From the IMG/VR virus record IMGVR_UViG_3300036791_000125, positions 1-35,000 of that record: a stretch of DNA of 35,000 nt; one strand, written 5' to 3'. Made by a program: the position numbers and the translations under genes. Below the pieces are notes generated by a model that was given only the letters and a program-made list of their open reading frames with translations, was not told where the DNA came from and made no database searches. Within the stretch, counting starts at the first letter, position 1; every line of letters begins with the position of its first letter. Shown here one piece after another: positions 8,755 through 34,476 of this stretch. This DNA comes from a virus.

Positions 8755-9124
8755 CTACGTCGCAGGTTTCTTTGATGGTGAGGGGTGCGTTTACTCTCGC
8801 GTCAAAGCGAATGGTAGCGTCAGGATCCGTCTCCACATGGACCAAATGAAGGCAGAGGTGCTATACCGGATCCAGGAGTACTTGGGCTATGGTAAGATCT
8901 ACTACAGGAGGAGTAACGGCAGCACTACCCTGCACATCGACAGGATAGCCGATTGCCTGAAGTTTATCGAACTAATCGCTCCGCACTCTGTGGTAAAGGC
9001 GGATCAACTCTACCTTGCGTGGTTGATCCTCAATGCTGATGCGATGGCTGAGAGGAGAGACCTTCACTCCCAACTACAGTCCATTCGCCGTCGAGGGCGT
9101 AAAGCGAAGACTGGGAAGGGGTAA
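8744..9124 (+). CDS. Free-standing LAGLIDADG homing endonuclease
   Basis: The 126-residue product carries one LAGLIDADG motif (YVAGFFDGEGCV, residues 5-16), so it should act as a homodimer making a staggered cut at a long site. GTG 8744 was chosen for AGGAGAGG at 8733-8740; the longer frame starts inside the previous gene. It sits between an accessory head gene and the scaffold with no intron or intein context, which fits a mobile selfish gene. A close relative is encoded at 30613-30999 on the other strand (both share AGFFDGEGCVY and a late HSVVK/YSVVK segment), suggesting spread within the genome. Confidence 0.85.
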   Translation: MDPSYVAGFFDGEGCVYSRVKANGSVRIRLHMDQMKAEVLYRIQEYLGYGKIYYRRSNGSTTLHIDRIADCLKFIELIAPHSVVKADQLYLAWLILNADAMAERRDLHSQLQSIRRRGRKAKTGKG

Positions 9125-9126
9125 TA

Positions 9127-11617: not shown

Positions 11618-11643
11618 CTCCGGAGCGGGATAGGAGGCGGACG

Positions 11644-12102
11644 ATGGAGATGTTACCGATGAAGGCTTGGTACAACCACGAGCACGGTGTCATCGAGCTG
11701 GAAGACGACGTACTCTCCATCGTCCGCCAGGTCCGCGAGCTGTACGAGCGTCGGATCACGATCGAACTCCTCCCTGATTCACGGGAGCCGTATGCGTTCG
11801 TGGAGCATTGTGAGGACGGGGCCGATCGACTCGTCTTCACATGCGTCGAACTGGATGGTCGCGCTCTCGAGCGTCTCCTGAGATCCGACAGTCACGGCCG
11901 TGCGTACATCGACCCTTACGACGAATCCGAGCAGGCTCATGACCGCCTCCAGGAGGAGAAGGACTACGCTAGCCAGGAGAAGCTTGGTGAAGTCGCTGAG
12001 GAGATGGCGTATGCACTCAAGCGTGAAGGCCGCGCTGAATCACTACCACTCACTGTGGGCCTAAACGCGGGGAGGACGCAGCGTGCCGACGACCACAGGT
12101 AA
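11644..12102 (+). CDS. Unknown protein between capsid and adaptor genes
   Basis: ATG 11644 follows GGAGG and gives 152 residues beginning MEMLPMKAWYNHEHG; the longer frame runs back into the capsid gene. The protein is acidic, with a compact N-terminal half and a charged helical C-terminal half (SEQAHDRLQEEKDYASQEKL). The end overlaps the adaptor gene by 20 nt. No family recognised. The position suits a head-completion or capsid-associated protein. Confidence 0.65.
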   Translation: MEMLPMKAWYNHEHGVIELEDDVLSIVRQVRELYERRITIELLPDSREPYAFVEHCEDGADRLVFTCVELDGRALERLLRSDSHGRAYIDPYDESEQAHDRLQEEKDYASQEKLGEVAEEMAYALKREGRAESLPLTVGLNAGRTQRADDHR

Positions 12103-16765: not shown

Positions 16766-18249
16766 TGGCCGCCGCAGCAGCACCTCCAGCTAACCCGATC
16801 ACTACCCCGATGACCTACGCGCAGCTGCAGGCGCTGGCGGCATCGCAAGCTGCGGCTACGATTGGGGGTCAGAATGCACCGCTGTCGGCTCAGGTCAACA
16901 CCCTCACTGATCAGGAGAAGACCGCGCATGGAGACGTCGTAGCAGAACAGGGACGACTCCTTCCATACGTGCAGCAATCAGCAGGTGTAGTTCAGCAGGC
17001 CGAGAATAATGCCCTCTCGATGGAGCAACAGGTATTCGCGGCCGCGGGCACGCGCATGAATCAGCTCCACCAGAACGCTGCTGCGGAGGCGCAGCAACTC
17101 GCGCAGCAAATGGGTGGGCCTGTATCGACTGGGCAATTCACTCAGGCACTTGAGCCGTACGAGAACGCGCTGCCGAACGTGCAGGCTGGCGGTACGCTGA
17201 ACGCGCTTGGCATGTCTCTGGCGGGGACCCAGGAAGCGCAGCAGTTTGCGGGTCAGGTGTTCCCCGCGATGATGTCAGAGGAAGCAGCGAAGTCTGACGC
17301 ATTCTTCAACGATCAGATCAAGACTCTCAACAACCAGATTGCCGCTAACCAAGGTACCAAGTCTGACCTCGTGAACACCAACCTCAATACGCTCCTCCAG
17401 AACGAGCGCCAGTTCCAACTCAACGTCACTACGCAGAAGAGGGATGCGAAGGCGGCAGCTCTGAACGAGAAGGTGCAGAGGCAATCTCTCGCGGACGACA
17501 AGCTCCGTAACGCACTCGCGCAGGGCGCGGCGAAACGAGCTAACATCTCGCTGGGTATCTCGAGCGCCAAGGCGCAGGCTTCGATCGCTCACATGTCTAA
17601 TCAGGACAAGATCAATGCCGCGAAGTTGGGTATCACCCGACAAGAGGCTGCAGCACGCATCGCGCATGAGAGTGTGATGGCGAAGGTCGGGGCAGCGAGA
17701 GTGTCGGACTCGATCTCCAAGGACGCCATCTCCTTGGTGCAGAACGCGATGGGTGGCGGTAAGCCCGTTAGCACGACACGCGAGATTTACCTCCCAAACA
17801 ACCCCATATACAAGTTCAAGCCACCCGCAGGTGCATACCCTGGCAAGGGTGGACGATACTTCAAGGTCGTACATGAAACGAAGCCGGGGCAAACTGGTCA
17901 GCATCCGATCACGGATCCAAACCGCTTGTTCCAGTACGTGCGAGGATCCCTCCCGCAGCTTGGTCGCAAGGCGACGATCAACCTCATCCGCGCCCAAACC
18001 GGGCGGAAGAACTGGTCGCCGGGTCAGAGGGTGTCGTTCTCGGGTAACGACTACCACAACATGCCTCTGACGGAGTTGGAAGGTCTCGCACGTAACGCCG
18101 GTTACGCTGGTAAGTTTGGTAAGGGTAACCGTCAGGGAATCGTCGACTACCTGCTGCACGTCAATCCGCATCCTGGCCCAACCGGTCAGCAACAGGGTGC
18201 GGGTCAACAGCCTGCCGCACCAGCGCCTAACGTGTTCCTCAATCCGTAA
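16765..18249 (+). CDS. Internal virion/ejection protein, helical Ala/Gln-rich
   Basis: The 494-residue product begins MAAAAAPPANPITTP and is dominated by Ala/Gln/Asn-rich helices with coiled-coil character up to about residue 330. A more compact C-terminal part with a helix-rich LNRxx-like KATINLIRAQ segment and a disordered Gln/Ala/Pro tail follow. It has no enzymatic motif. Overlaps at both ends (TGATG before, TAATG after) tie it to its neighbours. Position and composition suggest an inner-core ejection protein comparable to T7 gp15; not a sequence match I can claim. Confidence 0.6.
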   Translation: MAAAAAPPANPITTPMTYAQLQALAASQAAATIGGQNAPLSAQVNTLTDQEKTAHGDVVAEQGRLLPYVQQSAGVVQQAENNALSMEQQVFAAAGTRMNQLHQNAAAEAQQLAQQMGGPVSTGQFTQALEPYENALPNVQAGGTLNALGMSLAGTQEAQQFAGQVFPAMMSEEAAKSDAFFNDQIKTLNNQIAANQGTKSDLVNTNLNTLLQNERQFQLNVTTQKRDAKAAALNEKVQRQSLADDKLRNALAQGAAKRANISLGISSAKAQASIAHMSNQDKINAAKLGITRQEAAARIAHESVMAKVGAARVSDSISKDAISLVQNAMGGGKPVSTTREIYLPNNPIYKFKPPAGAYPGKGGRYFKVVHETKPGQTGQHPITDPNRLFQYVRGSLPQLGRKATINLIRAQTGRKNWSPGQRVSFSGNDYHNMPLTELEGLARNAGYAGKFGKGNRQGIVDYLLHVNPHPGPTGQQQGAGQQPAAPAPNVFLNP

Positions 18250-21200
18250 TGCCGCAGGTTGAATCCTTCGCGCCGAGTCAACTCCCGAAGCTCGGGCAGG
18301 GCTTTCGTGGTCGACTGCCTGACGTAGATAGTGGTGGAGGTGGTCTCAAACCACCACCCGGCATCCCGCACATTCGCACCGCACCACAACTGCCGCGCAT
18401 CAATTATGGTGCTGTGGCACAAGTCGGTCGTCAGCCACGCAATCCTGTAGGTCAGTTGCCTCAGGGATTCGGTCCACTACCTCAGATACCGAAGATGCCG
18501 AAGCTCAGTTCTGCTGAGAGGCAGGCGATGGGTTGGATTCAGAACTCGGGTTCGAAGCCCAGTCAGAAAACCATCCAGCTAGTCAAGCAGCCTACGCCGA
18601 AGATGCAGATGCACCTCGCCTACAACCCACAGCTGCGTGAGGCGCACCAGGACCTACAGCAGCTGTTGGGACCCCCGAAGAATCAGCCATCAGTACAAGC
18701 AGCTACTCCCGGCGCGCAGCGAGCGATACGTCAGAGTAACCTCGTAGCCCAGAAACCGATGGAGGCAGGACTTATTCCTGGCGTTCCCTCGTTCCGCAAC
18801 CCAGTTGCTGCGTGGGGACAACGACTCCTCGGCGGCGTCGCCCAGAACATGGTGAATGTCGGCCCAGGATTGGCTACTGTGGGTGAACACTTCGGAGAGG
18901 ATATCGCCCACCCGATGCGCCACGACCCGATCTGGGGTCAGCTGGCTAGGCAAACTGGGTCAAGTTTAGCGGGTACGGTACTTCACCCAGGACGTGAGTT
19001 CGTTACTAACCCCGCTGAGGGGGTAACAAACCTAGCCACTATCCTATCGTTGGGGGCGGGTGCAGTTGCTAGGGGAGGCGTAGCTGCTGATGCTGCTGCT
19101 GGCTTACGTTCGGGTGAACTAACACCGTTGCAGGCCGCGTTGAAAGCTACGCACCCGCGAATCTTCGAGCGAGACATCAAGGTTCTCCCCGGCAATTCGA
19201 GTGTGCGTGTGAGACCACCTGCGTTCAAGAGTGCGCTTGGTGGCTATGCGCAGACTAAGCTGTTCGATCCGCTCACAGAGAAACTGATCGACGCCCCGAC
19301 CATGGGCAACAAGATACCGACCTTTCGTGAGGGTTCGCCAGTTCCTCAGATCTTCCATCGAGATGTTCCCGTTCCTAAGTTTGCGATCAAGGCAGCTGAG
19401 CGGCATGGCGCTAAACTCTTGCAGCGCGACGTGAACCTGAAGACGGAGATGCAACGTGGTGCTGCTGAAGTACCACTAATGCAGAAGATACGTCAGGCAA
19501 TCCCGCCTCCGCCTAGCATCCGCGATCGTAGTCCCGGAGCAAAGGCAGCTAGGGCTACGTATCGTCAGGCTGTGGCAGAAGCGCAGCAGCAAGCGTTTGC
19601 TGAGGGCGCACTGCAAGCTCACGCCAACCTTCACAAGAGTCTCTATGAGGGTGGCGCTGGAGCTGCCGAGTCTCTCTTCCATGATCCGCAGGGGTACGTC
19701 GGCATCAAGAAAAACCCGCTCGGGTATGGACCGAAGGACTTGGCGAAGTATGCCACGACTAACACCGCCGCACGTACCTGGAACCAGATGGTCGAGAAAG
19801 ATCCAGCTAAGTTGATGGCTGACCCCGACGCCTACAGCTACATTCCGAGAGCGACGTGGAATCGCTTGAAGCTTGAGGCTGGGCCGACGGGTAAGATGGC
19901 GGACATGGCGAACCTTGTCGATAGGGCGAATCAGATGGTCCGCTCTGGACGATTCTTGCACCCAGGCTACGCTGTGTGGGGCGTACAGAATGGGATGCTC
20001 CACCTGTCGCAGGCGGGTGCGCTCATAATCCGTAACATGTGGCAGCACCGCAACGAACTCTCGCGTCTGAACGAGGGAGATCTAGCCCAGTTCAATAACG
20101 CTGTGGGTGCAGGCCACTTCGGTGGCGGCATCGCTCGCTCCTACGGTGGAGGTGAGGGGTCGTTCTTCAAAGGCGGTGCTTTCAAGGTTCCAGGTGTCGG
20201 TGAGGTCCCTAGCATCCCGGGTAGTGTCAGTGCAGCAGCGAGGTTCAAGGGTTTGACTACTCGCGCAGCGCAGTTCTGGCACAAGGTCGACGACAAGTAC
20301 TGGCGCCAGCTGAGCATGATCCACGAGCTCAATCGTAACGGTTACCACAGTGCTGAGGATTGGTCCAAACTCCTGCACGACAACCCAGTCAAGTTCCGCA
20401 CCATCGCTCACCAGGCGCAGGATGAGGCGATCAACTACAGCGAGATGTCCCCCATCGAGCGTCAGACCGTAGCGAAGCTCATGACGGCATGGGGATGGAC
20501 ACGTGGTGCAACGAGCTACTCCCTGCGATTCCCACTCCAACACCCAGCTCAGGCAGCAGTACTGAATCAGCTCGCGCGCCAGGGTCAGAGCAAGGTCGAC
20601 AACTTCTACTCTGGGTACGGCGGTATGTCGCCGAGTTGGTTGCGTGGGTATCTGCCTCTGGGTCATGGTAACCATCCCTCACTGCTAGGCACGTCAGACA
20701 TCAATCCCGGTGAAACCGCGGGTTCACTGCTTCAATCACTTCCACTACCATTCATCCAGCCACAGGGACCTCATGATCCGCTCATCACACAATTCGGTCC
20801 CGCGACGCAGGGAATCTACGAAGCACTCTCGGGTCATGATCCATACGGCAAGGCACTACAGGGTAACGCGGGCGAAGCAGCGGCGACTGACGTGCTCAAG
20901 CGCTTCACGCCTTTGTCCTACTCAAACATCCTCGCTAAGTCCAAGAAGGGTGGCGGCACATTCCAGCAGGGGTTGAAGCCATTCCTCGAGAGTGAGTTCG
21001 GCGTTCCCCTCAGGCAGCTCGTCAATCCGAAGCAGACTGCAGCACTGGGTATGAAGGACTGGGAGACCTCACTACCCAAACCCGCAGAGATTCAGTTCCG
21101 CTACAACCAGGCAGTCAAGCAGCTCCCCCAGGAAATGGCCCTGTTCAAGAAGTGGAACGGCGGTGTGGGTGTTGGCTCAGCACTCGTCTCCAAGCTCAAG

Positions 21201-21518
21201 GGGGATCTTGAGGCTGTCGAGCAGCGTGACATGTTCCAGTACAAGGTCGCGCAATCCAAGGGTGCGAACTCGTTCCGCACCCTACCAGCTGTGGACCGCG
21301 CAAATGCTGGCATTGATTTCATGCTCCAGCACAAGTACATCTCACCCTCAGATGCGGCGGGATTGAAGCGTGAGATGAGTCAGTATAACACGGAACCGCT
21401 GATGAATCAATTTGCTACCACCATATGGGGTGGTCCTGGCATCGGTAGTGTCGTCTCTCAATGGAAGTCCGCGATGAAACAACTCCAACCAGCACCGGTT
21501 GCACCTCCTCGTGGCTAA
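18249..21518 (+). CDS. Large internal virion/ejection protein (1089 aa)
   Basis: This is the largest gene in the window. The product has a Pro/Gly-rich, disordered N-terminus (to about 200), then mixed segments and long helical stretches (for example EVPLMQKIRQAIPPPPSI and SPIERQTVAKLMTAWGW). A C-terminal region resembles the helical membrane-interacting part of large podoviral core proteins. No catalytic motif was found; the wall-degrading activity is in the next gene. It overlaps the transglycosylase gene by 8 nt. By position it corresponds to the large DNA-ejection protein, forming part of the conduit across the envelope. Confidence 0.62.
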   Translation: MPQVESFAPSQLPKLGQGFRGRLPDVDSGGGGLKPPPGIPHIRTAPQLPRINYGAVAQVGRQPRNPVGQLPQGFGPLPQIPKMPKLSSAERQAMGWIQNSGSKPSQKTIQLVKQPTPKMQMHLAYNPQLREAHQDLQQLLGPPKNQPSVQAATPGAQRAIRQSNLVAQKPMEAGLIPGVPSFRNPVAAWGQRLLGGVAQNMVNVGPGLATVGEHFGEDIAHPMRHDPIWGQLARQTGSSLAGTVLHPGREFVTNPAEGVTNLATILSLGAGAVARGGVAADAAAGLRSGELTPLQAALKATHPRIFERDIKVLPGNSSVRVRPPAFKSALGGYAQTKLFDPLTEKLIDAPTMGNKIPTFREGSPVPQIFHRDVPVPKFAIKAAERHGAKLLQRDVNLKTEMQRGAAEVPLMQKIRQAIPPPPSIRDRSPGAKAARATYRQAVAEAQQQAFAEGALQAHANLHKSLYEGGAGAAESLFHDPQGYVGIKKNPLGYGPKDLAKYATTNTAARTWNQMVEKDPAKLMADPDAYSYIPRATWNRLKLEAGPTGKMADMANLVDRANQMVRSGRFLHPGYAVWGVQNGMLHLSQAGALIIRNMWQHRNELSRLNEGDLAQFNNAVGAGHFGGGIARSYGGGEGSFFKGGAFKVPGVGEVPSIPGSVSAAARFKGLTTRAAQFWHKVDDKYWRQLSMIHELNRNGYHSAEDWSKLLHDNPVKFRTIAHQAQDEAINYSEMSPIERQTVAKLMTAWGWTRGATSYSLRFPLQHPAQAAVLNQLARQGQSKVDNFYSGYGGMSPSWLRGYLPLGHGNHPSLLGTSDINPGETAGSLLQSLPLPFIQPQGPHDPLITQFGPATQGIYEALSGHDPYGKALQGNAGEAAATDVLKRFTPLSYSNILAKSKKGGGTFQQGLKPFLESEFGVPLRQLVNPKQTAALGMKDWETSLPKPAEIQFRYNQAVKQLPQEMALFKKWNGGVGVGSALVSKLKGDLEAVEQRDMFQYKVAQSKGANSFRTLPAVDRANAGIDFMLQHKYISPSDAAGLKREMSQYNTEPLMNQFATTIWGGPGIGSVVSQWKSAMKQLQPAPVAPPRG

Positions 21519-24505: not shown

Positions 24506-25305
24506 TATTCTCTCCCTTCGTAGATCTGAACTAACATGTCCGCGAGGTCAGGCGCGTCGATGTGGTCAGGAAACACACCGTTGCGGTCCTTGCTGATGTA
24601 GCGCTCCGAGTCGCCTAGGAGCAGCCTACGCCTGATCTCCTTGCGCGCGGTCTTCGTCTTCTTGTTGCGGATTACCACCTCCCTCTTCGTGAGGTAGCCG
24701 ATTGTACCGACTGCGGCCTTGAGTGTTTTCTCAATGCTAGGAGACACCTCGGGACCGTAGACGACCTCACCGCCCTCTTCGTCCTCATCGCCTACCTGCT
24801 TAGCACGGAGCTGCGCGATGAAGATGACGTTGAGTGGGAGGTTTCGGTAGTTCGTGATCTGTGTACGCATGAGCTTGCCCACCTTACCCCAGGCCTGACG
24901 GCTAGGCATATCGGGATCGCGAGACGCATCCCGGGAAGCCTCATCACCCAAGACGAAGTCCATGCAGATATTTTGTAGGTTAGATACAGTGTCAATACCA
25001 ACGGATTCATAGCTGTGGTCCCCCTCCTGCAAGAACCAGTAGATGTCGATGACCTCGCGCCAGTACTCAACCTGAATGTAGTCTGGGTTGAAGTCGCGGC
25101 TGACCGAGTCGTGGCCCTTGTCGTTCACGTCGATCATCAGGATCTTAGGCGCCGACGCTGCGAAGCGGGTCTTGCCTGTCCCCGAGTCACCGTACACGAG
25201 GATGTTCTGATTCTTGGCGAGCTGACTCGCCTTCTTGATCCTCTTACGTACTCTCTCGCTGACGTTCGAGCGGTCAGTCTGCGAGGAGATCCGGTTCCTT
25301 GGCAT
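24505..25305 (-). CDS. Sak4-like RecA-type ATPase (AAA_24)
   Basis: A 266-residue RecA-fold ATPase of the phage Sak4 type, used for single-strand annealing or recombination. Walker A is GDSGTGKT (39-46). Walker B is ESVGIDTVS (Asp105). An Asn/Gln-rich segment (NVIFIAQLRAKQ) and the RKEIRRRLLLGDSERYISKDRN portion are typical of the family. ATG 25305 follows GAGGAAAGG and overlaps the nuclease gene by 32 nt. With the adjacent ssDNA-binding protein and Cas4/RecB-like nuclease it forms a recombination module. Confidence 0.83.
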   Translation of the reverse strand: MPRNRISSQTDRSNVSERVRKRIKKASQLAKNQNILVYGDSGTGKTRFAASAPKILMIDVNDKGHDSVSRDFNPDYIQVEYWREVIDIYWFLQEGDHSYESVGIDTVSNLQNICMDFVLGDEASRDASRDPDMPSRQAWGKVGKLMRTQITNYRNLPLNVIFIAQLRAKQVGDEDEEGGEVVYGPEVSPSIEKTLKAAVGTIGYLTKREVVIRNKKTKTARKEIRRRLLLGDSERYISKDRNGVFPDHIDAPDLADMLVQIYEGRE

Positions 25306-26344
25306 ACCTTTCCTCTGCTGTAGTGAAGTCGGCTTCGATCAGCCCGTCAATGTCTAGCCCCGAGAATTCGGCCACACACAGACTGTGGTACTCGCACCCC
25401 CACCGACAGTTGTAGAAATACGAGCGAGGAGCGAACTTGCTTCGGCGCTGAATATCCCGGACCGACACGAGAAACTCAAGCAGTGCTTGCCTGATCTTGT
25501 CGTCCTCAACTGGGATACGCTCACGTCTGTACCATAGCACGTCTCGACCACGTAGGTCAAGCAACTTTTCACGATACACCGCCTTGGCGTAGTCTTTCCA
25601 CATGTCACCGTGCAGTTCCTTGATCGCCCACAGATAGGTGTAGTAGTCAGTGTCCATGCGCTTCGCTACCGATAGGGTACCGTTCTTCAGGATCCTCGGG
25701 ATCGCTGGCGGTTTCGTGCGACCATAGTCGTAGATGAACCCTCGCAAGTCGTACCCTAGTCTGCGCCCTGCCCACACGTACATACAGTTCTGCGGGCTCA
25801 TCATGCGCTCATCGTCGTCAGGGATGGACTTCACCCACTTCGCGTCACGGAACCACAACCCGCCGTACTCGTTGTCCTCGACCATGAGGTCGATGCGTCC
25901 CTTGAATGGGTAGTCCTTACCGACCTTCGGTAGCGAGTGCTTGACCACGAACTCGATCGCGGGCTTACCGTTGTGCAAGGCTGCGACGCTGTACTGATCT
26001 GCCTCGTCCTTCCAGAATCGCAGGTAACCCTTGAACATGCGGTAACACTCTGTGGGCAGGTCGCCGTACTCTTCTTTTTCCTCGTCGAACAGTTCGTCGT
26101 AAGCCTCCTCGAACTGAGCGTGTACGTCCTGCCACGGGACGACCTTGACCTTGAACCCGCTCTCGCGTGCCCACTCGCGGTTGTGCGCCTCTTGTAACGC
26201 ATGAAGCCAAGTCCCACGGCGCAACTGAACCTTCGGCACCTTCGGTACGAGTTCGAGACCGTCAGGTGCGTAGTCGTAGCGGAATGAGTACTGCTTCTGA
26301 CACCGACGGAACATCTTGATGCGGCTCTGATTCATGCCTGGCAT
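25274..26344 (-). CDS. Cas4/RecB-like PD-(D/E)XK nuclease with predicted Fe-S cluster
   Basis: A 356-residue exonuclease-like protein. The nuclease core has His48, Glu131, KGRIDLM (Asp152) and RDAKW (Asp167, Lys169), the PD-(D/E)XK signature. Four cysteines, one near the N-terminus (Cys15) and three near the C-terminus (Cys313, Cys317, Cys323, in NCRWGCEYHSLC), match the iron-sulfur cluster of Cas4/AddB. In phages such proteins resect DNA ends. GGAG lies 8 nt before ATG 26344 and the start overlaps the HNH-HTH stop by one base. Probably works with the Sak4-like ATPase; no CRISPR array is present. Confidence 0.85.
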   Translation of the reverse strand: MPGMNQSRIKMFRRCQKQYSFRYDYAPDGLELVPKVPKVQLRRGTWLHALQEAHNREWARESGFKVKVVPWQDVHAQFEEAYDELFDEEKEEYGDLPTECYRMFKGYLRFWKDEADQYSVAALHNGKPAIEFVVKHSLPKVGKDYPFKGRIDLMVEDNEYGGLWFRDAKWVKSIPDDDERMMSPQNCMYVWAGRRLGYDLRGFIYDYGRTKPPAIPRILKNGTLSVAKRMDTDYYTYLWAIKELHGDMWKDYAKAVYREKLLDLRGRDVLWYRRERIPVEDDKIRQALLEFLVSVRDIQRRSKFAPRSYFYNCRWGCEYHSLCVAEFSGLDIDGLIEADFTTAEERYAKEPDLLAD

Positions 26345-26694: not shown

Positions 26695-26703
26695 ATTGTA
26701 TCA
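26695..26703 (-). promoter_or_regulatory. Extended -10 promoter, leftward, between polymerase and HNH-HTH genes
   Basis: Minus-strand TGATACAAT (TG-N-TACAAT) lies at the polymerase stop codon. The predicted start of transcription, 7 nt downstream, coincides with the second in-frame ATG of the next gene, so the message may be leaderless. The same nonamer occurs at 33031-33039. Confidence 0.45.
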
Positions 26704-29127
26704 TACCCCGATCCCTAGCCCCGATGCGTCAGGGGTACCTGTCCAGTGCTGATCCCACTCGACGTCCGCGATGATGGGGATGTCGATCTCTACACCGAAC
26801 GTCTGCTTGAGGGGCAAGTTCTCCATCACCTCCTTGACTACAGGACCGACCTCTTCAACCGCATCCTCTCGTACCTGTAGAAATATGGCATCATGGAGCG
26901 TCCCAACGAGGAAAGCGGTTCGGGGGTCAAGCTGAGGCTGAAGTTGAACCATGGAGAATAACATGAGATCCGACGCGGTGGCCTGGACTGGGGAGTTGAT
27001 TGCTTGCCTTTCGGCTTCCATGCGAACACCGTTATCCGACGATAGGATATCCGGTAGATGTCGTACACGCCCCAAAGGACTGACGACTCTGTGGTAATTG
27101 TGTGCCACCCTCTTCTGTCGGTCATGCCATGCCTCCAGGTCGCTGAACATGGAGAAGTACTTGGATCTTGCCAATTCAGCCTCAGCTAATGACACCTCGA
27201 TTTCGTAGTTCTCGAACGCATAGGACTGAAACTTCTTCGGGTACATGCCGTACAGGAACCCGAAGTTCACAGCCTTAGCCCTCTTGCGCTCCTCCTTCGT
27301 CACTGTCTTCGGTGATTTCCCAGTAAGAGAGGATGCGGTTACGAGGTGAAGATCTTGCCCCGTGAGGAACGCACGTCGCATCCTCCTCTCCTTGGCTACG
27401 TGGGCAGCGATGCGTAACTCGATCTGGGAGTAATCCGCTTGGACGAATAACCACCCCGGAGGCGCACCGATCACACCACGTATAAACGAGTCCCTCGGGA
27501 CCTGTTGAAGGTCGCCAGATAAACGTCCAGTCACTGTCCCGTACAACTTGTAAGTAGTGTGGAGCCTGCTTCGCGTATCCAATCTCGTAGACCATGGTAA
27601 CAAGTAGGTGTTCATCCATTTCAGCTGGAGTGTCCTATACTCGAGGAGCGCCTTGATTGCGGGATGATCGTGGTAATGTAGGAGTACCGACTCCCTGGTC
27701 GAGGGGCGCCCCGTAGCAGTCTCCTCCAAAGGGGATAAGCCAAGCCCCCGCTTAGAAAAGAGCCACCTGCCCAGTTGCTGGGTGGAGTTGAAATTGAAAT
27801 CTTCCCTCCACTTCTGTGGTAGATGCTCACGCAATACCTCCTTGCGGTCGTCGATCTCCCCTTGCAGAACCGCCATTCTGTGGAACAGGCGCTTCTGGTT
27901 GACGTACATGCCTGCAGCCTCGACCTGCTGAATCACATGTGAGGCGGGCATGAGCAACTTGGCGAACAGCCTCGTCAAGCGTGGTTGCGCTATCAGTTCC
28001 TCGCGCAGCCTCGGGTAGATCTGGTGCGTGTAGCCCACATCGTTACCGTTGTACGAGCAGATCTTGCGAAGCGGTTCCTTCATGATCTTATCTGGCTTGA
28101 GTTCGACCATCCCCTTGTAGACGTCCGCCCCGAGTACGGACTGGGATAAGAAACCGAGGTTCTTCGGGCGGTTTTCATCGAGCAGGTGCGCGGCGAGCAT
28201 GATGTCGAAGCGGTGCTCTAGAAATACCCGAGCTCCCGCAAGCTGCTGGTTATCGTGCTTGCCATTTTGTGCAACAAGCTTAAGGTCTCCGCGTCTGAGT
28301 GCTGGGGCAAGATATCGCAGGATATCACGCCATCTACGTCTAAACGGGCTTTGCGGATGAGACAGCGGGACGACGTAAGTTGTCTTGCCGTCCCACGAGA
28401 TACCGAGACAGACGATATCCCACTCTCTTTCCCACGGTCGGCCGCGGTTTTCCACGTCGTAGGAGACCACAGAAGAGGGTGGGAGCGCCTCGAGTTGTCG
28501 CCTGAGCCACTTGACGGCATCGACGGTATCGACATACTTACTCCTCACTGGCACGACCTGGAACTCGCCTCGCATCATGCGGGCGAATCGCTTCACGTCT
28601 TCAGCCAGCGTGCTGTGCTGACCTGGGTTACGGAGAATGTATGCGGGGTGGAACGTTGCCATCACCTCGCGTGACGCCCACACTGGGTCCTTGACCTTGA
28701 GCCTTAGCCCCCTTTGCTTCGTGATGCCCGACTTGCGCGCGACCGCTTGGAGGGCCGCGTTGCCGAGTAGAAGCACAAATCGTGGGTCAACTTTACGAGC
28801 CTCACGTTCCAGGTAGATGCGACATGCTTCGAACTCCACTCGGTCAGGACGACGGTTTTCTGGTGGGCGGCACTTGACGACATTGGTAACATATGCCTCG
28901 TCACGAGAAAGCCCCGCCTCGGTGAGTAAAGTATCAAGTAGCTTTCCCGCGCGTCCACTGAACACCTTGCCACTGTAGGCTTCATGCTCACCCGGTGCCT
29001 CCCCGATAATCATGTAGTCCGAATGCCTATTGCCGCTACCCATCACGCAGACTCTATCTGTGGTCTCGTGCAGATGACAGCGCTCGCAGCCGTGGTCTGC
29101 GTACTTGTCGAGGGGCGACTTATACAT
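26701..29127 (-). CDS. Family A DNA polymerase with N-terminal uracil-DNA glycosylase domain
   Basis: An 808-residue fusion. Residues 1-185 are a family-4-type UDG domain: GEAPGEHE (42-49), FHPAYILRNP (159-168) and four cysteines (14, 17, 86, 102) in the Fe-S layout. A 3'-5' exonuclease domain follows (SYDVEN with Asp224/Glu226; NGKHDNQQL near 288-296; SYNGNDVGY with Asp363). The polymerase domain starts near 400: motif A ADYSQIELR (Asp565), motif B RAKAVNFGFLYG (616-627), motif C LHDAIF (His745/Asp746, with Ala where E. coli has Glu). The order suggests replication with proofreading plus a uracil-recognition or repair function. ATG 29127 overlaps the upstream gene by 8 nt. I recall a similar UDG-like N-terminus in phage SPO1 DNA polymerase. 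Confidence 0.93.
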   Translation of the reverse strand: MYKSPLDKYADHGCERCHLHETTDRVCVMGSGNRHSDYMIIGEAPGEHEAYSGKVFSGRAGKLLDTLLTEAGLSRDEAYVTNVVKCRPPENRRPDRVEFEACRIYLEREARKVDPRFVLLLGNAALQAVARKSGITKQRGLRLKVKDPVWASREVMATFHPAYILRNPGQHSTLAEDVKRFARMMRGEFQVVPVRSKYVDTVDAVKWLRRQLEALPPSSVVSYDVENRGRPWEREWDIVCLGISWDGKTTYVVPLSHPQSPFRRRWRDILRYLAPALRRGDLKLVAQNGKHDNQQLAGARVFLEHRFDIMLAAHLLDENRPKNLGFLSQSVLGADVYKGMVELKPDKIMKEPLRKICSYNGNDVGYTHQIYPRLREELIAQPRLTRLFAKLLMPASHVIQQVEAAGMYVNQKRLFHRMAVLQGEIDDRKEVLREHLPQKWREDFNFNSTQQLGRWLFSKRGLGLSPLEETATGRPSTRESVLLHYHDHPAIKALLEYRTLQLKWMNTYLLPWSTRLDTRSRLHTTYKLYGTVTGRLSGDLQQVPRDSFIRGVIGAPPGWLFVQADYSQIELRIAAHVAKERRMRRAFLTGQDLHLVTASSLTGKSPKTVTKEERKRAKAVNFGFLYGMYPKKFQSYAFENYEIEVSLAEAELARSKYFSMFSDLEAWHDRQKRVAHNYHRVVSPLGRVRHLPDILSSDNGVRMEAERQAINSPVQATASDLMLFSMVQLQPQLDPRTAFLVGTLHDAIFLQVREDAVEEVGPVVKEVMENLPLKQTFGVEIDIPIIADVEWDQHWTGTPDASGLGIGV

Positions 29128-29314
29128 CTGGGTTACTCGGTACGGGGATAGACTGACCCGCTTCGACCTCGACTACGTCGAGCTCTGGACCGCAGATGTC
29201 AGCTGCCTCACGCGCGAAACGATCCACGGCTGTATTCACTGTGGTCAGCCAGCGATTAGCCACCTCCTCGTCCTCAGTGTCGATTACTACACAGAACCAA
29301 GCGACTCGTCTCAC
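29120..29314 (-). CDS. Small protein of unknown function
   Basis: A 64-residue product from GTG 29314, which overlaps the dCMP deaminase stop (GTGA) and ends overlapping the polymerase start by 8 nt. It starts MRRVAWFCVVIDTEDEEVAN, then a helical segment and an acidic end (GPELDVVEVEAGQS). It shows no motif I recognise. Tight coupling with the deaminase and polymerase suggests a real gene, perhaps a small replication partner. Confidence 0.6.
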   Translation of the reverse strand: MRRVAWFCVVIDTEDEEVANRWLTTVNTAVDRFAREAADICGPELDVVEVEAGQSIPVPSNPDV

Positions 29315-29838
29315 TGCGCGTGGAACTCCTGCTTGACTGCGCCGATGCCTGCGAGGCGAAGGAGCTCGATGCCGGCGGGATCACGGTAGTCCTCCTCGTA
29401 ATACACGCGCCGGATCCCTGCAGCGATTAGCAACTTGCTACATACGTCGCACGGTGCAACTGTCACGAACAGCGTCGTGTTGTCTGTAGAGATCCCCTGA
29501 CGCGCCGCAAAAGCAAGGGCGTTCGCCTCTGCGTGTGTTGCGTTGCGACAGCCGTGCTCGCTTAGCATGCTCGCCTCTAGATCTGCGGCTTCCTCGTTGT
29601 CCATCGGCTCGCGGTACTCGGGCAGGAGCTGCCAGCCGTGGTTGTTCTCCTCGCAGTGAGGTAGGCCGGCAGGCGCACCGTTGTAACCCCAGCTGATCGC
29701 ACGACCATCGCGCACGAGGACTGCACCCACCGCCTTGCGGGGGCAAGTGCCGAGACGCGAGAGCTGAATCGATATGCCCATGAATACATCTCGCCGCAGA
29801 ATGTCGCGGCCGATCTCAGGTAGACTGATCTCGCTCAC
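29311..29838 (-). CDS. Deoxycytidylate (dCMP) deaminase
   Basis: Converts dCMP to dUMP, the precursor for thymidylate. The 175-residue zinc enzyme has THAEANALAF (zinc ligand His102, proton-shuttling Glu104) and APCDVCSK (Cys130, Cys133), and N-terminal VGAVLVRDGR with GYNGAPAGLPH, all diagnostic. An insertion-like stretch (about 62-98) lies between them. GTG 29838 has AAGGGGGA upstream. It overlaps the thymidylate-synthase-family gene by 23 nt. Its coexistence with a possible dCMP-hydroxymethylase means the two would compete for dCMP, as in phage T4, where both are present. Confidence 0.9.
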   Translation of the reverse strand: MSEISLPEIGRDILRRDVFMGISIQLSRLGTCPRKAVGAVLVRDGRAISWGYNGAPAGLPHCEENNHGWQLLPEYREPMDNEEAADLEASMLSEHGCRNATHAEANALAFAARQGISTDNTTLFVTVAPCDVCSKLLIAAGIRRVYYEEDYRDPAGIELLRLAGIGAVKQEFHAQ

Positions 29839-30634
29839 GAAGATCCCCCTTGTGTAGATGGAACGAGTACGCGGTGAAGTTCAGGTACCCTACCTCGACC
29901 GGACGCCATGCCTCACTACGGACGTACAGCTCGTTGAGTACCCACTGCGCGAGTCTCACTGCCATGTAGACATCGTCGCGGAAGTGGCGGATCGCATCGC
30001 AACTACGGATTGGGTACCACAGGTGTAGCTTGTTCTGTCGCATGAGGAAGTGGTAGTGTAGGGTGCAGGGAATCCGACCACCGTGTTTTGCTCCTGTGTC
30101 TTCAGGGAAGAAGATGGGGAACGTAGCCTGCCTCGTGAGTGGGTTCTCAGCTAGGAGGCTGATCACGTCGGTGAGGTCGCCGTACATGAATCGGATCCCA
30201 GTGTTGACTAGCATCTGAGGTTCTAATGGCATACTGCCAATACCAGCATGTACGGGCCAGAATCGCTCCTGGTAGGTGTGAGTGAACCGCCCGTCGATCA
30301 TGGTTTCCTCGGTTTGATCGTTCCACCAGGGCCAGTTCTTGTACTCGACGCCGGGGTTGCTGGGTACGCCGGCGACGCGCTCCTGGAAGTGATCCTCCGC
30401 CCACGGCAAGTTCGGGTTGATCAGTTCCGCTGCCTCCTCTTGCGACTCAGGCATCTTCGCTGTCCACTGTAGGTTGATGATCTCCTTTGTCACAAGATCA
30501 GGCTTACCCTCTGTGGGCACGCCCTGCCACGTGCCAGCGTCTACGTCCTCGCCGAACTGATCGAGGTACTCGAGGGATTCGAGGATCGCATCGTCCAACC
30601 ACTCGAAGACGTTCACGCTAAGAGACGTCTCCAT
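29816..30634 (-). CDS. dCMP hydroxymethylase/thymidylate-synthase-family enzyme
   Basis: A 272-residue member of the thymidylate synthase superfamily, transferring a one-carbon unit to C5 of a pyrimidine nucleotide. The catalytic core aligns without gaps to E. coli ThyA: Cys190 (IPCTLHYHF), then 20 residues to Arg210 in RSCD, then 11 to position 221. There the dUMP-specific Asn177 of ThyA is replaced by Asp221 (HFRDDVY). T4 dCMP hydroxymethylase also has Asp (Asp179, as I recall, in an FRND context). His259 and His261 correspond to the His/Tyr ribose-binding pair, with Tyr replaced. The N-terminal half is divergent. Likely substrate dCMP; product hydroxymethyl- or methyl-dCMP is not determined. 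GGGAGG precedes ATG 30634. Confidence 0.75.
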   Translation of the reverse strand: METSLSVNVFEWLDDAILESLEYLDQFGEDVDAGTWQGVPTEGKPDLVTKEIINLQWTAKMPESQEEAAELINPNLPWAEDHFQERVAGVPSNPGVEYKNWPWWNDQTEETMIDGRFTHTYQERFWPVHAGIGSMPLEPQMLVNTGIRFMYGDLTDVISLLAENPLTRQATFPIFFPEDTGAKHGGRIPCTLHYHFLMRQNKLHLWYPIRSCDAIRHFRDDVYMAVRLAQWVLNELYVRSEAWRPVEVGYLNFTAYSFHLHKGDLRERDQST

Positions 30635-30999
30635 ACTTGTTTCGCCTCCCTTAGTTCTTGTACTAGACCCCCCCGCTCACTCCGTGGAAGCTCAAGTAAC
30701 TCCCTCATGATTTCTAACTGACCTCGCTTCACTACGCTGTAGGGTAAGATGAGATCTATGAAGGCCGAAATCTCTGCCTGCCGAGTACACCTCCAAACCC
30801 AGGTATGTCCGTTGCTATGACGTAGCATACGCCCAAACCCCAGCATCCTCTGAACTCTCAAGAGGACCTCAGGGTCGTTTTGGGAGAGCTCGACGGATAC
30901 GTTGTGGTGTTTGCTCTTAGAGAAGCCTGCGTACACGCATCCCTCCCCATCGAAGAAGCCTGCGATGTATGCTCGTTGGACAGGACGTAAGTGGTTCAC
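30613..30999 (-). CDS. LAGLIDADG homing endonuclease between two nucleotide-enzyme genes
   Basis: The 128-residue product carries one LAGLIDADG motif (YIAGFFDGEGCVY, about 11-23), implying a homodimeric site-specific endonuclease. GTG 30999 overlaps the stop of the upstream thymidylate-synthase-like gene (GTGA), and its end overlaps the start of the downstream one by 22 nt. It is a relative of the gene at 8744-9124. Homing endonucleases often sit beside conserved dNTP-metabolism genes and cut the same locus in relatives lacking them. No intron signals are seen. Confidence 0.85.
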   Translation of the reverse strand: MNHLRPVQRAYIAGFFDGEGCVYAGFSKSKHHNVSVELSQNDPEVLLRVQRMLGFGRMLRHSNGHTWVWRCTRQAEISAFIDLILPYSVVKRGQLEIMRELLELPRSERGGLVQELREAKQVWRRLLA

Positions 31000-31817
31000 G
31001 GATAGAGTGGCTTCCAGGTTAGGTCGCGGACCGTGACAGTCGGTAGGTAGTCCTCGTCCATGTATTCACGGTACCTTCGCATCACCCTCTTCAAAGGCCC
31101 GTATTTGTTGTCGTGGATGCCCGCCTCGTGGTACTCCGTGATCTTGTCGTACCACTTCCCGACGAGGTTGATGGTGGGGTACTGCTTGCGAAGTGCGGGG
31201 AGCTCGAGGTCTTCTATGTATGCGGTCTTGAAGAGCATGGGGAGTGACTTGAACCCATGGAACTGCAAGGCGTCTACGTGCCACGCAAAAGCAAATTCCT
31301 CAGGACGAACTCCCACTCGCTTACCAATAGTCCTCGCGAGGACGTGGGCAAGTGCCAGATCAAGACCGCCGATATAAGCGATGTAAGATACCCGAGAGTG
31401 AAGTATGAGCGTTGGCTGTTCCTTTCGTACATTACCGCGATACGTCCAGCCGAGCATGCAGTTACCCCACCGATGGCGCTTTGAATATCGCTCGACGTTT
31501 CGGGAGAACATCGAAGTACAAGCACCTTTCGCTCCCTCTCCGCTGGCGAGTTCCTCACACTTTCCAACGAACCGTATCAACTCCTCCTTCTCGACATAGT
31601 CCCTCACCAGTCTCGTCCACCGCTGCTTGTTCAACCACAGATCACGGCCCATGTCGAGGTCGAACGCCATGCTCTTACAGCTCAGGACGTTGTCGTAGCT
31701 GATGATATCTGCACTGCCTACGCAGTCGACGAGGCCGTTGTCGATAGTGCCTCGCCACATACGCCAGATCGACCCGCGCCACAGGTCAGACAGGTCTTCG
31801 TAGTCCTTACGAATCAT
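30996..31817 (-). CDS. Divergent thymidylate-synthase-like protein, function unknown
   Basis: The 273-residue product resembles the TS fold. The N-terminal SCKSMAFDLDMGRDLWLNKQ segment (46-65) parallels the G-x-x-MRFDLS...T-KK region, and YVEKEELIRFVG the following helix. LILHSRVSYIAYIGG with Arg142 precedes Asp153 by 11 residues, the same spacing as Arg to the substrate-selecting residue in TS. WHVDALQFHGF (179-189) recalls the VGSLHxY segment. The catalytic Cys loop is not clearly placed: Cys120 is the nearest candidate, but about 16 residues seem missing. It may be a non-standard pyrimidine-modifying enzyme or a structural partner of the next enzyme. ATG 31817 overlaps the zinc-ribbon gene. 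Confidence 0.5.
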   Translation of the reverse strand: MIRKDYEDLSDLWRGSIWRMWRGTIDNGLVDCVGSADIISYDNVLSCKSMAFDLDMGRDLWLNKQRWTRLVRDYVEKEELIRFVGKCEELASGEGAKGACTSMFSRNVERYSKRHRWGNCMLGWTYRGNVRKEQPTLILHSRVSYIAYIGGLDLALAHVLARTIGKRVGVRPEEFAFAWHVDALQFHGFKSLPMLFKTAYIEDLELPALRKQYPTINLVGKWYDKITEYHEAGIHDNKYGPLKRVMRRYREYMDEDYLPTVTVRDLTWKPLYP

Positions 31818-31944
31818 TCTGTAGCACCTTCGCTTGGGCAGGTGTGATGCCCGGGACCCGACACTTACACTTCAACGCACTACAAACGCCATCGGGTGTG
31901 AGGCGATGGAGGGTCAGTAAGTGACCGCATATCTGACACCTCAT
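31807..31944 (-). CDS. Small zinc-ribbon protein (45 aa)
   Basis: ATG 31944 overlaps the MazG stop (ATGA) and the end overlaps the next gene by 11 nt, so the frame fills an otherwise unexplained gap exactly. The product starts MRCQICGHLL and contains CxxC followed by C-x4-C-x-C (Cys3, Cys6, Cys21, Cys26, Cys28), a zinc-ribbon-like pattern. No family assigned. In a nucleotide-enzyme operon it may be a regulator or small accessory. It is below the usual gene-finder length. Confidence 0.6.
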   Translation of the reverse strand: MRCQICGHLLTLHRLTPDGVCSALKCKCRVPGITPAQAKVLQNDS

Positions 31945-32294
31945 CTCGACACCCCGTCATGGGGGAACTTGATCCAATCGCGCTCGCGGACCTGACGCCA
32001 GACCTTGTCGATCTCCTCTGCGAGAATGAATCCTCGATGGCTAGCGATGCCGAGCATGAAGATCACGAGGTCAGCGCACGCATCCTTGATCTCCGCCTGG
32101 TGATCGACGCCCTCACCACGAATGCCCTGACTCGACTTGAGGAGGTGATGTGCTAACTCACCCATCTCCTCGACCATCCCCATGAACGGATCCTCCTCGC
32201 GGTCGTTGGGGAAGTTGTGCGCGACCCACTCATCCCGCTCCAACTGGATGAATTCTAGGTCAAGGATTCGAGTCTTACCGACAGATTCTCCCAT
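31941..32294 (-). CDS. MazG-like nucleotide pyrophosphohydrolase
   Basis: Hydrolyses (d)NTPs to NMPs and pyrophosphate in the all-alpha NTP-PPase family. ATG 32294 was chosen because GGGAGG lies 4 nt upstream; the longer frame runs into the kinase gene. The 117-residue product has the metal-binding EEMGELAHHLL (Glu42, Glu43, Glu46) and EIKDACADLVIF (Asp71, Asp75) motifs. Phage MazG proteins have been linked to removing unwanted nucleotides or altering host signalling. Here it lies between the dNMP-kinase-like and thymidylate-synthase-like genes, so it may shape the dNTP pool. Confidence 0.82.
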   Translation of the reverse strand: MGESVGKTRILDLEFIQLERDEWVAHNFPNDREEDPFMGMVEEMGELAHHLLKSSQGIRGEGVDHQAEIKDACADLVIFMLGIASHRGFILAEEIDKVWRQVRERDWIKFPHDGVSR

Positions 32295-32809
32295 GAGTCC
32301 TCCCAAGTGTAGTCGTAGAGCATCACGTTGTCGTAGAGCGCCTGCGCGCACCAGGCATACGTAGCCCAGTACATGTTCCAAACCTTCGACAGTGCCTGCG
32401 CGCTCACGTCCTTCAGCTGTGGTCGATCGTCCTGGCGTATGTTGGTGAGGGTTACCTCGAAGTCAGGCAGACAGAAGATGAGGATTGGTTCGATCGACCA
32501 CAGTCTGCCAATGCCTTGTGCGAGTTCTTTGGGGTGGATGTGTAGGTCGCGCTCGACCTGCGCCTGCTGGTAGATTGGGTCGGAGATGTAGAAGCATCGG
32601 TCGTACACGCCCTTGCCCAACGAACTCGGGCGCATCGCGAGCTGCCCATTCCACCACTCAGCGAGGTGGTCAGCAGGACCATGAGTCGACGAGAGTAGGG
32701 CAGGTGGCGGGCGACGATACTCACGCTCGTACTCGGTGGCGATCCTCTGGGCGAGTGTCGTCTTGCCAGCGCCGTCTGGTCCCTCGACGATGATTGGTAG
32801 CTTACCCAC
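32255..32809 (-). CDS. Deoxynucleoside-monophosphate-kinase-like P-loop protein
   Basis: Start GTG 32809 overlaps the upstream stop by 8 nt and follows GGAGCGGGAG; the longer open frame is unlikely. The 184-residue product has a P-loop EGPDGAGKTT (9-18), the signature of thymidylate-kinase-like and phage dNMP kinases. DR-C (YDRCFYISD) matches the DRY/DR-x substrate region, and RQDDRPQLK resembles the lid. It would phosphorylate dTMP or a modified dNMP. In this operon a kinase accepting a modified dCMP is attractive, but that is inference. Confidence 0.78.
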   Translation of the reverse strand: MGKLPIIVEGPDGAGKTTLAQRIATEYEREYRRPPPALLSSTHGPADHLAEWWNGQLAMRPSSLGKGVYDRCFYISDPIYQQAQVERDLHIHPKELAQGIGRLWSIEPILIFCLPDFEVTLTNIRQDDRPQLKDVSAQALSKVWNMYWATYAWCAQALYDNVMLYDYTWEDSWENLSVRLESLT

Positions 32810-32996
32810 GCTCCCGCTCCACTTGTGGGTGGTGCTCAGACGACCTCTCCTCGTCGCCCTCATAGAACGAGACCTCCTTGGTCAAGACGATCGTCCCCGT
32901 GTCGGTCTGGATGGCTGCGAACGGCTCGCCTACGCTACCACCACTGTGGTTCACGCTCTCAAGTGGGATACCCTTGACTTTCCATCTCATTGACAC
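32802..32996 (-). CDS. Small protein of unknown function
   Basis: GTG 32996 is preceded by GGGAGG about 9-10 nt upstream, and an extended -10 promoter candidate lies at 33031-33039. The 64-residue product starts MSMRWKVKGIPLESVNHS, has a small beta-rich middle (IQTDTGTIVLTKEVSFYEG) and a charged tail. No family recognised. It is the first gene after the helicase and overlaps the kinase gene, so expression is coupled. Confidence 0.6.
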   Translation of the reverse strand: MSMRWKVKGIPLESVNHSGGSVGEPFAAIQTDTGTIVLTKEVSFYEGDEERSSEHHPQVERERG

Positions 32997-33030: not shown

Positions 33031-33039
33031 ATTGTATCA
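33031..33039 (-). promoter_or_regulatory. Extended -10 promoter, leftward, before the nucleotide-metabolism genes
   Basis: Minus-strand TGATACAAT overlaps the helicase stop codon, identical to the element at 26695-26703. The predicted start near 33024 gives a leader of about 28 nt to GTG 32996 with its ribosome binding site. No -35 match was found at 16-19 bp. It could separately boost the kinase-MazG-hydroxymethylase segment. Confidence 0.45.
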
Positions 33040-34476
33040 CACGCGGAGGAACCTATGCGGATCACGCATCAGTTGTCCATGCCAGTCTTCTTTTCTTCTG
33101 AGTCCCGCAAGAACCCCTCGATCGACTGTACCACGGGCGACGAAGGCGGTGACTCTAACGGGACGGTGTTGATTAGGCCCTCGTAGTCGATTGAGGCACT
33201 GCCAGAAGTCGACCCAGCTATCCGGTAATGTGAGGAATGCCACTTCGGCAGCACGAGTAAGTTCGATGCTGAGGGATCCAGCTTGATGCTGAATGACCAG
33301 TGCCTGTGGGCCACGGCGGCTCGATTGAAACGAGTGTACCACGTCGCCGCGATCTCTGCGTCGTGTACGGCCGTCGAGTACTTGAGTACGAAAACCGGCT
33401 CGTGCCAGAAGGTCCCGGGAGGAATCAACCTCGGCACGGAAACGACAGTACACGACCACGTCCTCCCCTTGCTCGCTGAGATTCTCAGCATACGCTCGGA
33501 GAGAGGTAGTCTTAGCATCGTGGATCTGGTCACCCGCCGTGGTGAAACCAGCCGTAAGCTGTAGTAGGCGCAGTCGCAGCACACCCTGATTGGCAGCATC
33601 CAGAACGCCAGCGTCAGTCTCAACGATGTACTCCTCAGCCAACTCATCATACAGATCCTTTATCTTTCGTGGTAGAGTGACGGGCAGGACCTGCCAGAAT
33701 AGTTTCCCTTCTAGTCCTGCTTGTCGTGCGGTGCAAGTGACAGAGTTTCGTCTGACGATTCGGTCCAGTCGTCGTTGGTTGGTGAATCGAATGATGGTGT
33801 AGCGTCTGCGGCCTGTACCATATACAACATAGTCCTCGTCAAACGAAGCAGCATTCGTACCCAGAAGCGAGTCATCCATGATGCGGAACTGGGCAAAAAG
33901 ATCACGCCATCCCTTGGGGTTGGGGGTGCCAGTAAGTAGGAGGACGTAGGGACGCTTACCTCCGTTTCGCTTACGAAGACGACGAACGAGTCTCCATGCA
34001 TCCTGCGCAGCACGACCGCCGGGGCGTTTGTACTGATGGCTCTCGTCGATAACGACAACATCTGGATCCCACCTCTCTAGCTCGCGTTGCTTGGGACGCT
34101 TGAGGTTCGTGGCAGCACGGACAGCACGGAATGTTTCTTCTCGCCCTGCGAGGAAAAACTGCGGATGCCCCCAGTCGAACGTGGGTCTATCCTTGTGTAT
34201 GTCATACCATTCTTCCTCGAAAGTCTCTGCGTGATACCAGTAGGGGAAATGCTTGTGTAGCTCACTCGCCCACACGTCGAGGGCAATCGACGGCGCAAGG
34301 ATCAGCACCTTGCGGCATTCACCCTTCAGCGCAAGGATAGCCGCGTAGTCTAGCGCGATTTTTGTTTTCCCAAGTCTAGGCTCCATGAAAATACCATAGT
34401 TCCTATGCCTGACCGCTGCCAAAGTAGCGCGACTTTGATGGGGGAAAGACTTAGTCTTCGGAGTGTACTTCAACAT
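33037..34476 (-). CDS. SNF2-like superfamily 2 DNA helicase/translocase
   Basis: A 479-residue ATP-dependent DNA translocase or helicase. Motif I is MEPRLGKTKIAL (Walker A, 31-42). Motif II is VVVIDESHQYK (DESH, 144-147). Motif III is LLLTGTPNPKG. The second RecA domain includes VVVYCRFRAEVD, and motif VI is the QCLNRLRGPNQ segment. The layout and length fit SNF2-type phage helicases involved in replication or recombination. ATG 34476 has AAGGAAG upstream and overlaps the endonuclease VII gene by 26 nt. No primase or DnaB-type helicase is in the window. Confidence 0.88.
   Translation of the reverse strand: MLKYTPKTKSFPHQSRATLAAVRHRNYGIFMEPRLGKTKIALDYAAILALKGECRKVLILAPSIALDVWASELHKHFPYWYHAETFEEEWYDIHKDRPTFDWGHPQFFLAGREETFRAVRAATNLKRPKQRELERWDPDVVVIDESHQYKRPGGRAAQDAWRLVRRLRKRNGGKRPYVLLLTGTPNPKGWRDLFAQFRIMDDSLLGTNAASFDEDYVVYGTGRRRYTIIRFTNQRRLDRIVRRNSVTCTARQAGLEGKLFWQVLPVTLPRKIKDLYDELAEEYIVETDAGVLDAANQGVLRLRLLQLTAGFTTAGDQIHDAKTTSLRAYAENLSEQGEDVVVYCRFRAEVDSSRDLLARAGFRTQVLDGRTRRRDRGDVVHSFQSSRRGPQALVIQHQAGSLSIELTRAAEVAFLTLPDSWVDFWQCLNRLRGPNQHRPVRVTAFVARGTVDRGVLAGLRRKEDWHGQLMRDPHRFLRV

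Follow-up and report, generated by a model that had tools for sequence, protein, structure and literature searches.

A pair of thymidylate synthase relatives in a phage replication cluster probably serves cytosine modification

Two thymidylate synthase relatives in one replication cluster

The DNA analysed here is a stretch of 35,000 nucleotides (nt) from a virus (IMG/VR record IMGVR_UViG_3300036791_000125, positions 1-35,000; "the window"), and it carries two genes for relatives of thymidylate synthase (TS), termed TS1 and TS2 in the following. The window is a fragment: near relatives have genomes of 46-47 kb, about 11 kb is absent between its end and its start in an alignment to one of them (G003), and the full genome probably measures about 46 kb. 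Its minus strand holds a compact replication cluster at about 23.3-34.8 kb, which encodes, in reading order, an endonuclease VII, a SNF2-type helicase, a protein like thymidine monophosphate (TMP) kinase, MazG, TS2, a LAGLIDADG open reading frame (ORF), TS1, deoxycytidine monophosphate (dCMP) deaminase, a PolA-type DNA polymerase with an exonuclease and a uracil-DNA glycosylase (UDG) domain, a helix-turn-helix ORF, a PD-(D/E)XK exonuclease, an AAA ATPase, and a DUF669 protein. A preliminary description had assigned the TS relatives, the kinase, MazG, the deaminase, and the polymerase to one leftward set, and all of these are indeed minus-strand ORFs. The gene set centred on the two TS relatives probably makes an altered cytosine for the phage DNA, and the functional statements made below rest on sequence, fold, and neighbourhood.

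TS1 (29816..30634, minus strand) matches phrog_160 'thymidylate synthase' at 3e-23 and has a Pfam TS score of 17.1 bits, under the cut-off of 24.3. Its AlphaFold2 model (mean predicted local distance difference test, pLDDT, 89.7) resembles the dCMP hydroxylase AfhB (Z 20.5), the CMP hydroxymethylase MilA (Z 20.0), and ordinary TS (Z about 19), and a profile search of the PDB also gave AfhB as the top match (3e-10), along with MilA and the N229D mutant of Lactobacillus casei TS. In an alignment with T4 gp42, a Mosigvirus AfhB homologue, SPO1 gp29, and the ThyA of phage Huwbert, TS1 retains the catalytic Cys (C190, codon 30065..30067, followed by T191), Arg166 (R210), Asp169 (D213), His207 (H259), and Tyr94 (Y121); here and below, positions 58, 94, 127, 143, 147, 166, 169, 177, and 207 follow TS numbering, 177 being Asn177 of the Escherichia coli enzyme. 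Conservation was counted over 80 TS1 relatives, in which C190, R210, and H259 are invariant, and TS1 thus belongs to the TS superfamily.

The position that is most telling for the substrate is 177, where canonical thymidylate synthases have the Asn that fits deoxyuridine monophosphate (dUMP). TS1 has Asp there (D221, codon 29972..29974), and as Asp is found in 80/80 relatives, this is not a chance substitution. The same column contains Asp in T4 gp42 and the Mosigvirus AfhB homologue, and Asn in SPO1 gp29 and Huwbert ThyA. With Asp177 and the catalytic Cys, TS1 has the residues of a dCMP hydroxymethylase rather than those of a canonical thymidylate synthase, and the dCMP-type Asp noted in the preliminary description has thus held up in the wider family. 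At position 147, 62 of the TS1 proteins have Thr and 18 have Ser; positions 147 and 177 are those that best separate the TS proteins of cytosine-modified from those of unmodified viral contigs, and TS proteins from cytosine-modified contigs mostly have Asp177 (PMC8670742). Position 169, which binds folate, is Asp in 79/80 TS1 proteins and Asn in the Mosigvirus AfhB homologue. Three residues before the Cys, the Leu143 of ThyA is replaced by Arg in TS1 (R187), by Asp in the T4 and SPO1 enzymes, and by Glu in the AfhB homologue. In T4, this position has been linked to water access in the active site (PMC6400193), and because a polar residue replaces Leu143, hydroxymethylation or hydroxylation is favoured over methylation. 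An invariant Glu (E85) lies 36 residues ahead of Y121, which equals the E58-Y94 spacing and makes E85 a candidate for the folate-activating Glu (Glu58/Glu60). The phosphate site reads TRQ instead of SRR. The resulting loss of a phosphate-binding Arg (R127 to Gln) was considered as an argument for a TS1-TS2 heterodimer and rejected, since SPO1 gp29 has the same TRQ.

TS2 (30996..31817, minus strand) is a member of phrog_13667 (1.8e-32), which is annotated as 'unknown function'. In the window protein, no Pfam or NCBIfam match was found that would place it in the TS superfamily by sequence, and also a sequence-only search of the PDB with TS2 found no TS; it is the structure model alone that reveals the fold. 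This model is of high confidence (AlphaFold2, pLDDT 94.9, predicted template modelling score 0.92) and matches AfhB with a Foldseek E-value of 4.6e-6 at a probability of 1.00 (Z 15.0, 186 aligned residues, root-mean-square deviation 3.3 Å), followed by MilA (Z 14.0) and TS (Z about 10-11). By its predicted structure, TS2 has the fold of the TS superfamily, and what had been noticed from the sequence as a second, divergent TS-like gene is confirmed at this level. Y74, C120 (codon 31458..31460), R142, and D153 (codon 31359..31361) are invariant in 64 TS2 relatives, some of which are only about 12-20% identical to the window protein. R142 and D153 are 11 residues apart, as are R166 and N177 in TS. 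A profile-profile alignment of TS2 with TS1 is weak (probability 3-12%) but sets the Cys, the Arg, and the Asp of one protein exactly against those of the other, and in both models these residues lie in the same secondary structure, with the Cys just ahead of a strand, the Arg towards the end of the strand after it, and the invariant Asp a few residues into the helix that follows. One TS2 branch has the sequence YRSTE, which is near to the TS motif QRSxD. TS2 has not been described as a TS-fold family before in the annotation or literature searched. Its gene, which the therapy phage Muddy and many other cultured phages carry, is annotated as a 'hypothetical protein' in those cultured-phage records that were read.

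Conservation of the pair and of the genes around it

When 98 loci with TS1 were scanned for TS2 with a hidden Markov model, TS2 was detected in 75, and in all 75 it lies upstream of TS1 on the same strand, with 44 of the pairs overlapping or at most 50 nt apart. The pair also has a constant company. Of the 68 non-duplicate pair loci, 67 have dCMP deaminase next to the pair, 67 have PolA there, and 59 have the kinase; counts for the helicase, exonuclease, AAA ATPase, and DUF669 genes run from 54 (SNF2-type helicase homologue) to 62 (PD-(D/E)XK exonuclease). At the 18 non-duplicate loci that have no TS2, these neighbours are mostly absent. Cytosine-modified contigs are reported to combine TS and PRA-PH with dCMP deaminase (PMC8670742). 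Cultured phages carry TS1 and TS2 as well, with 106 records for TS1 and 85 for TS2 in tblastn searches, and a divergent TS2 gene immediately ahead of TS1 is present in Serbin, Almagne, Strzyga, and MW202455, phages from hosts or sources outside the groups reached by tblastn with TS2. Two contigs have more than one TS2: in L045, a tandem duplication (8017-9944) directly precedes TS1, and in L062, which also encodes ThyX, TS2 is found at 8491-9318 and, as a second, separate copy downstream of the TS2-TS1 pair, at 11125-11865.

The neighbours themselves, all on the minus strand, could be assigned to families, which agrees with their preliminary naming. The dCMP deaminase (29311..29838; PF00383 1.7e-20, phrog_174 9e-48) has the HAE and PCxxC zinc motifs. 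The MazG-like nucleotide pyrophosphohydrolase (31941..32294; phrog_715 2e-5) shows the EExxE...ExxD motif in its translation, its Pfam PRA-PH match falls under the cut-off, and its start was set at the Met of MGESV, the longest ORF extending to 32381. The TMP-type deoxynucleoside monophosphate kinase (32255..32863) matches phrog_761 'thymidylate kinase' at 2e-17 and contains the Walker A motif GPDGAGKTT. The polymerase (26701..29127) combines PolA (4e-83) with a 3'-5' exonuclease and an N-terminal family-4 UDG domain (3e-35). Further outward lie the SNF2/ResIII-type helicase (33037..34476; phrog_62 3e-77), which together with the endonuclease VII forms the upstream part of the cluster that reaches 34813, and downstream the conserved PD-(D/E)XK exonuclease (25274..26344; PF12705 5e-12).

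The UDG domain had been counted among the signs of modified bases. A profile search found a UDG-like N-terminal domain on 73/78 PolA proteins near TS1, but in a comparison of the window protein with its relatives (L087, L090, L088, and L089 among them) the GEAPGxxE and HPxxxL motifs proved degenerate in about half of them, including those of Muddy, Cozz, Zuko, and Huwbert. The domain was therefore rejected as such a sign; apparently it is a repair-enzyme fold that has been kept for a non-catalytic role.

The LAGLIDADG homing endonuclease ORF between TS2 and TS1 (30613..30999, minus strand; PF14528 1.3e-8) lies outside the proposed pathway, and the window contains a second one at 8657-9124. In the relatives L002 and L003, the two TS-like genes share 25 nt and leave no room for such an ORF, and compared with the window their TS2 is 87-94% identical but their TS1 just about 68-72%, as if sequence had been exchanged at the LAGLIDADG insertion. 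That homing endonucleases recur at this site was considered and rejected, as other large gaps between TS2 and TS1 mostly hold different ORFs, one of them endonuclease-VII-like. Elsewhere in the window, a protein of 1089 residues that has no Pfam match (18249-21515) is encoded directly upstream of a transglycosylase (SLT) and NlpC/P60 protein and is perhaps an internal virion protein.

A probable cytosine modification and its alternatives

The reading that fits these data best, with a probability of roughly 0.6, is that TS2 and TS1 form a unit that modifies dCMP at C5, most likely by hydroxymethylation, and that from within the replication cluster feeds the polymerase. TS1 would most likely hydroxymethylate dCMP at this position, with the Cys attacking C6, Asp221 protonating N3, methylene-tetrahydrofolate supplying the carbon, and water quenching the methylene. 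For TS2, the proposed roles are that of an obligate partner subunit to TS1 and that of an enzyme acting on the same or the already modified dCMP. The TMP-kinase-like enzyme would convert the modified dCMP into its diphosphate, and MazG and the deaminase would drain normal deoxycytidine triphosphate (dCTP) and dCMP and also provide dUMP for thymidylate (dTMP). The phage polymerase would build the modified dCTP into the DNA, and the modification may protect this DNA from nucleases. The modified-pyrimidine pathway of the preliminary description is thus supported in part, by its dCMP signature, its paired TS-like genes, its kinase, MazG, and deaminase context, and its conservation, and loses the UDG domain. 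A more specific version, in which TS2 is a folate-independent second-step enzyme that acts with TS1 on dCMP, and in which the cytosine modification is new and widespread in phages that infect Actinobacteria and Proteobacteria, among them Muddy, is rather doubtful as a whole.

Several observations weigh against the proposed dCMP modification. TS1 comes without a detected TS2 in 23/98 loci, of which 2 have no upstream sequence and most others belong to divergent or very large viruses. The TS2 alignment has no conserved counterpart of Glu58, and a folate chemistry of TS2 is therefore doubtful. In a family tree with the reference enzymes, the TS1 family is long-branched and not clearly placed, so that the group added may be hydroxymethyl, hydroxyl, or methyl. 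The known hypermodifying partners are generally missing, with a carbamoyltransferase encoded in 0/48 pair records and a family-2 glycosyltransferase in 3/48, and no direct chemical data were found for these phages.

The preliminary description had left room for a transferase or methyltransferase outside the window, and this did not find support. Among the ORFs of the window that were searched by family, no base-modifying glycosyltransferase was recognised. From the missing stretch, 18 of the larger ORFs in two near relatives were searched against Pfam or PHROGs. Apart from several proteins without family, these gave a primase/helicase and one match each of endonuclease-like and terminase-like type, and neither a DNA methyltransferase nor a hydroxymethyl-specific transferase was recognised; that hypermodifying genes are hidden in the missing 11 kb is thus not supported by these 18 ORFs. 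Also the annotation of Muddy, in which many genes are unnamed, names neither a transferase nor a DNA methyltransferase. The simplest forecast is that cytosine in the phage DNA is undecorated or unusually decorated. Two contigs with TS1 only, L027 (9057-13250) and L028 (6218-10798), have C5-cytosine-methyltransferase-like, N6/N4-methyltransferase-like, and asparagine-synthase-like genes, a set that recalls the CmoX/CmoY carboxymethylcytosine pathway (PMC12783734) joined to a dCMP-type TS.

Among the alternatives, the one that survives best, though unlikely, is that the product is 5-hydroxycytosine, with TS1 or TS2 hydroxylating dCMP by means of flavin as AfhB does in Mosigvirus-type phages. The TS superfamily includes 5-hydroxy-dCMP synthases (PMC13390438), AfhB is the top PDB match of TS1 by profile and of both models by structure, and the lack of a conserved Glu58 counterpart in TS2 would suit such an enzyme. 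However, the fold similarity of TS1 to MilA and to ordinary TS is nearly equal to that with AfhB, and the folate-binding Asp169 of 79/80 TS1 proteins is the very residue that is Asn in the Mosigvirus AfhB homologue.

It is still less probable that the cluster serves thymidylate synthesis alone, as current annotation has it, with dCMP deaminase, dUTPase/MazG, TS, and TMP kinase supplying thymidine triphosphate and with TS2 unrelated. The corresponding cluster of Gordonia phage Azira has been described as thymine synthesis (PMC10353413), the kinase is TMP-like, and dUMP is the product of dCMP deaminase. Against this, the dUMP-fitting Asn177 is replaced by Asp in 80/80 TS1 proteins, an exchange (N177D) that switches TS to dCMP according to papers cited in PMC8670742, and TS2, whose model has the TS fold, is not likely to be unrelated. 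Moreover, some carriers have a distinct dTMP-forming enzyme besides the pair: Huwbert encodes a full ThyA beside its TS2-TS1 pair, and ThyX is present in MW202455 and MW202777. ThyX is co-encoded in 9/48 pair records, which makes a role of the pair in dTMP synthesis improbable, and on the grounds of Asp177 and of ThyX or ThyA in carriers, a dTMP-making activity was rejected as its main role.

The DNA of phage XP12 contains 5-methylcytosine. That the DNA studied here does so too, with TS1 as a dCMP methylase, is the least probable of these alternatives. The replacement of the hydrophobic Leu143, which is tied to hydride transfer, by Arg speaks against it, even if TS with the N to D change methylates dCMP (Liu and Santi 1992, cited in PMC8670742) and no hydroxyl-decorating enzyme was recognised.

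If the proposed modification by TS1 and TS2 is true, Muddy, Cozz, Zuko, Serbin, Almagne, and other cultured phages would contain an unrecognised modified cytosine. This would matter for restriction, CRISPR, and further defences that target DNA, for the engineering of a therapy phage, and for the sequencing of carrier genomes.

Comparison with known systems

Among the reference enzymes, the dUMP hydroxymethylase gp29 of SPO1 has the highest identity to TS1 (24%) and shares the TRQ, but it has Asn instead of Asp at position 177, which stands for uracil specificity. Both TS1 and TS2 are closest in fold to the AfhB-type dCMP hydroxylase, a 5-hydroxy-dCMP synthase (PDB 9iqu, 9iqc), whose Mosigvirus homologue shares the Cys and Asp177 with TS1 but differs by Asn169; this homologue occurs in a T4-like phage context with arabinosyltransferases, enzymes that decorate 5-hydroxycytosine, and has no TS2 alongside in the stretch shown. 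Second-best for both proteins is the CMP 5-hydroxymethylase MilA, which also acts on a cytosine nucleotide, although in a bacterial antibiotic pathway and on a ribonucleotide. The cytosine-modified viral contigs of the MetaGPA study (PMC8670742), with TS, PRA-PH, dCMP deaminase, and a carbamoyltransferase, have the same Pfam neighbourhood and residue signature and are set apart by the carbamoyltransferase, which none of the 48 pair records encodes. The dCMP hydroxymethylase gp42 of T4 is only about 18% identical to TS1, and T4 lacks TS2 and has a glucosyltransferase besides its single enzyme of this kind. Nevertheless, the enzymes agree in the TS fold, the catalytic Cys and the Thr after it, Asp177, the polar residue three ahead of the Cys, and the context of dCMP deaminase and kinase. 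For the kinase of the modified nucleotide and the dCTP-removing enzyme of a T4-type modified-cytosine system, the TMP-kinase-like and MazG genes are candidates here.

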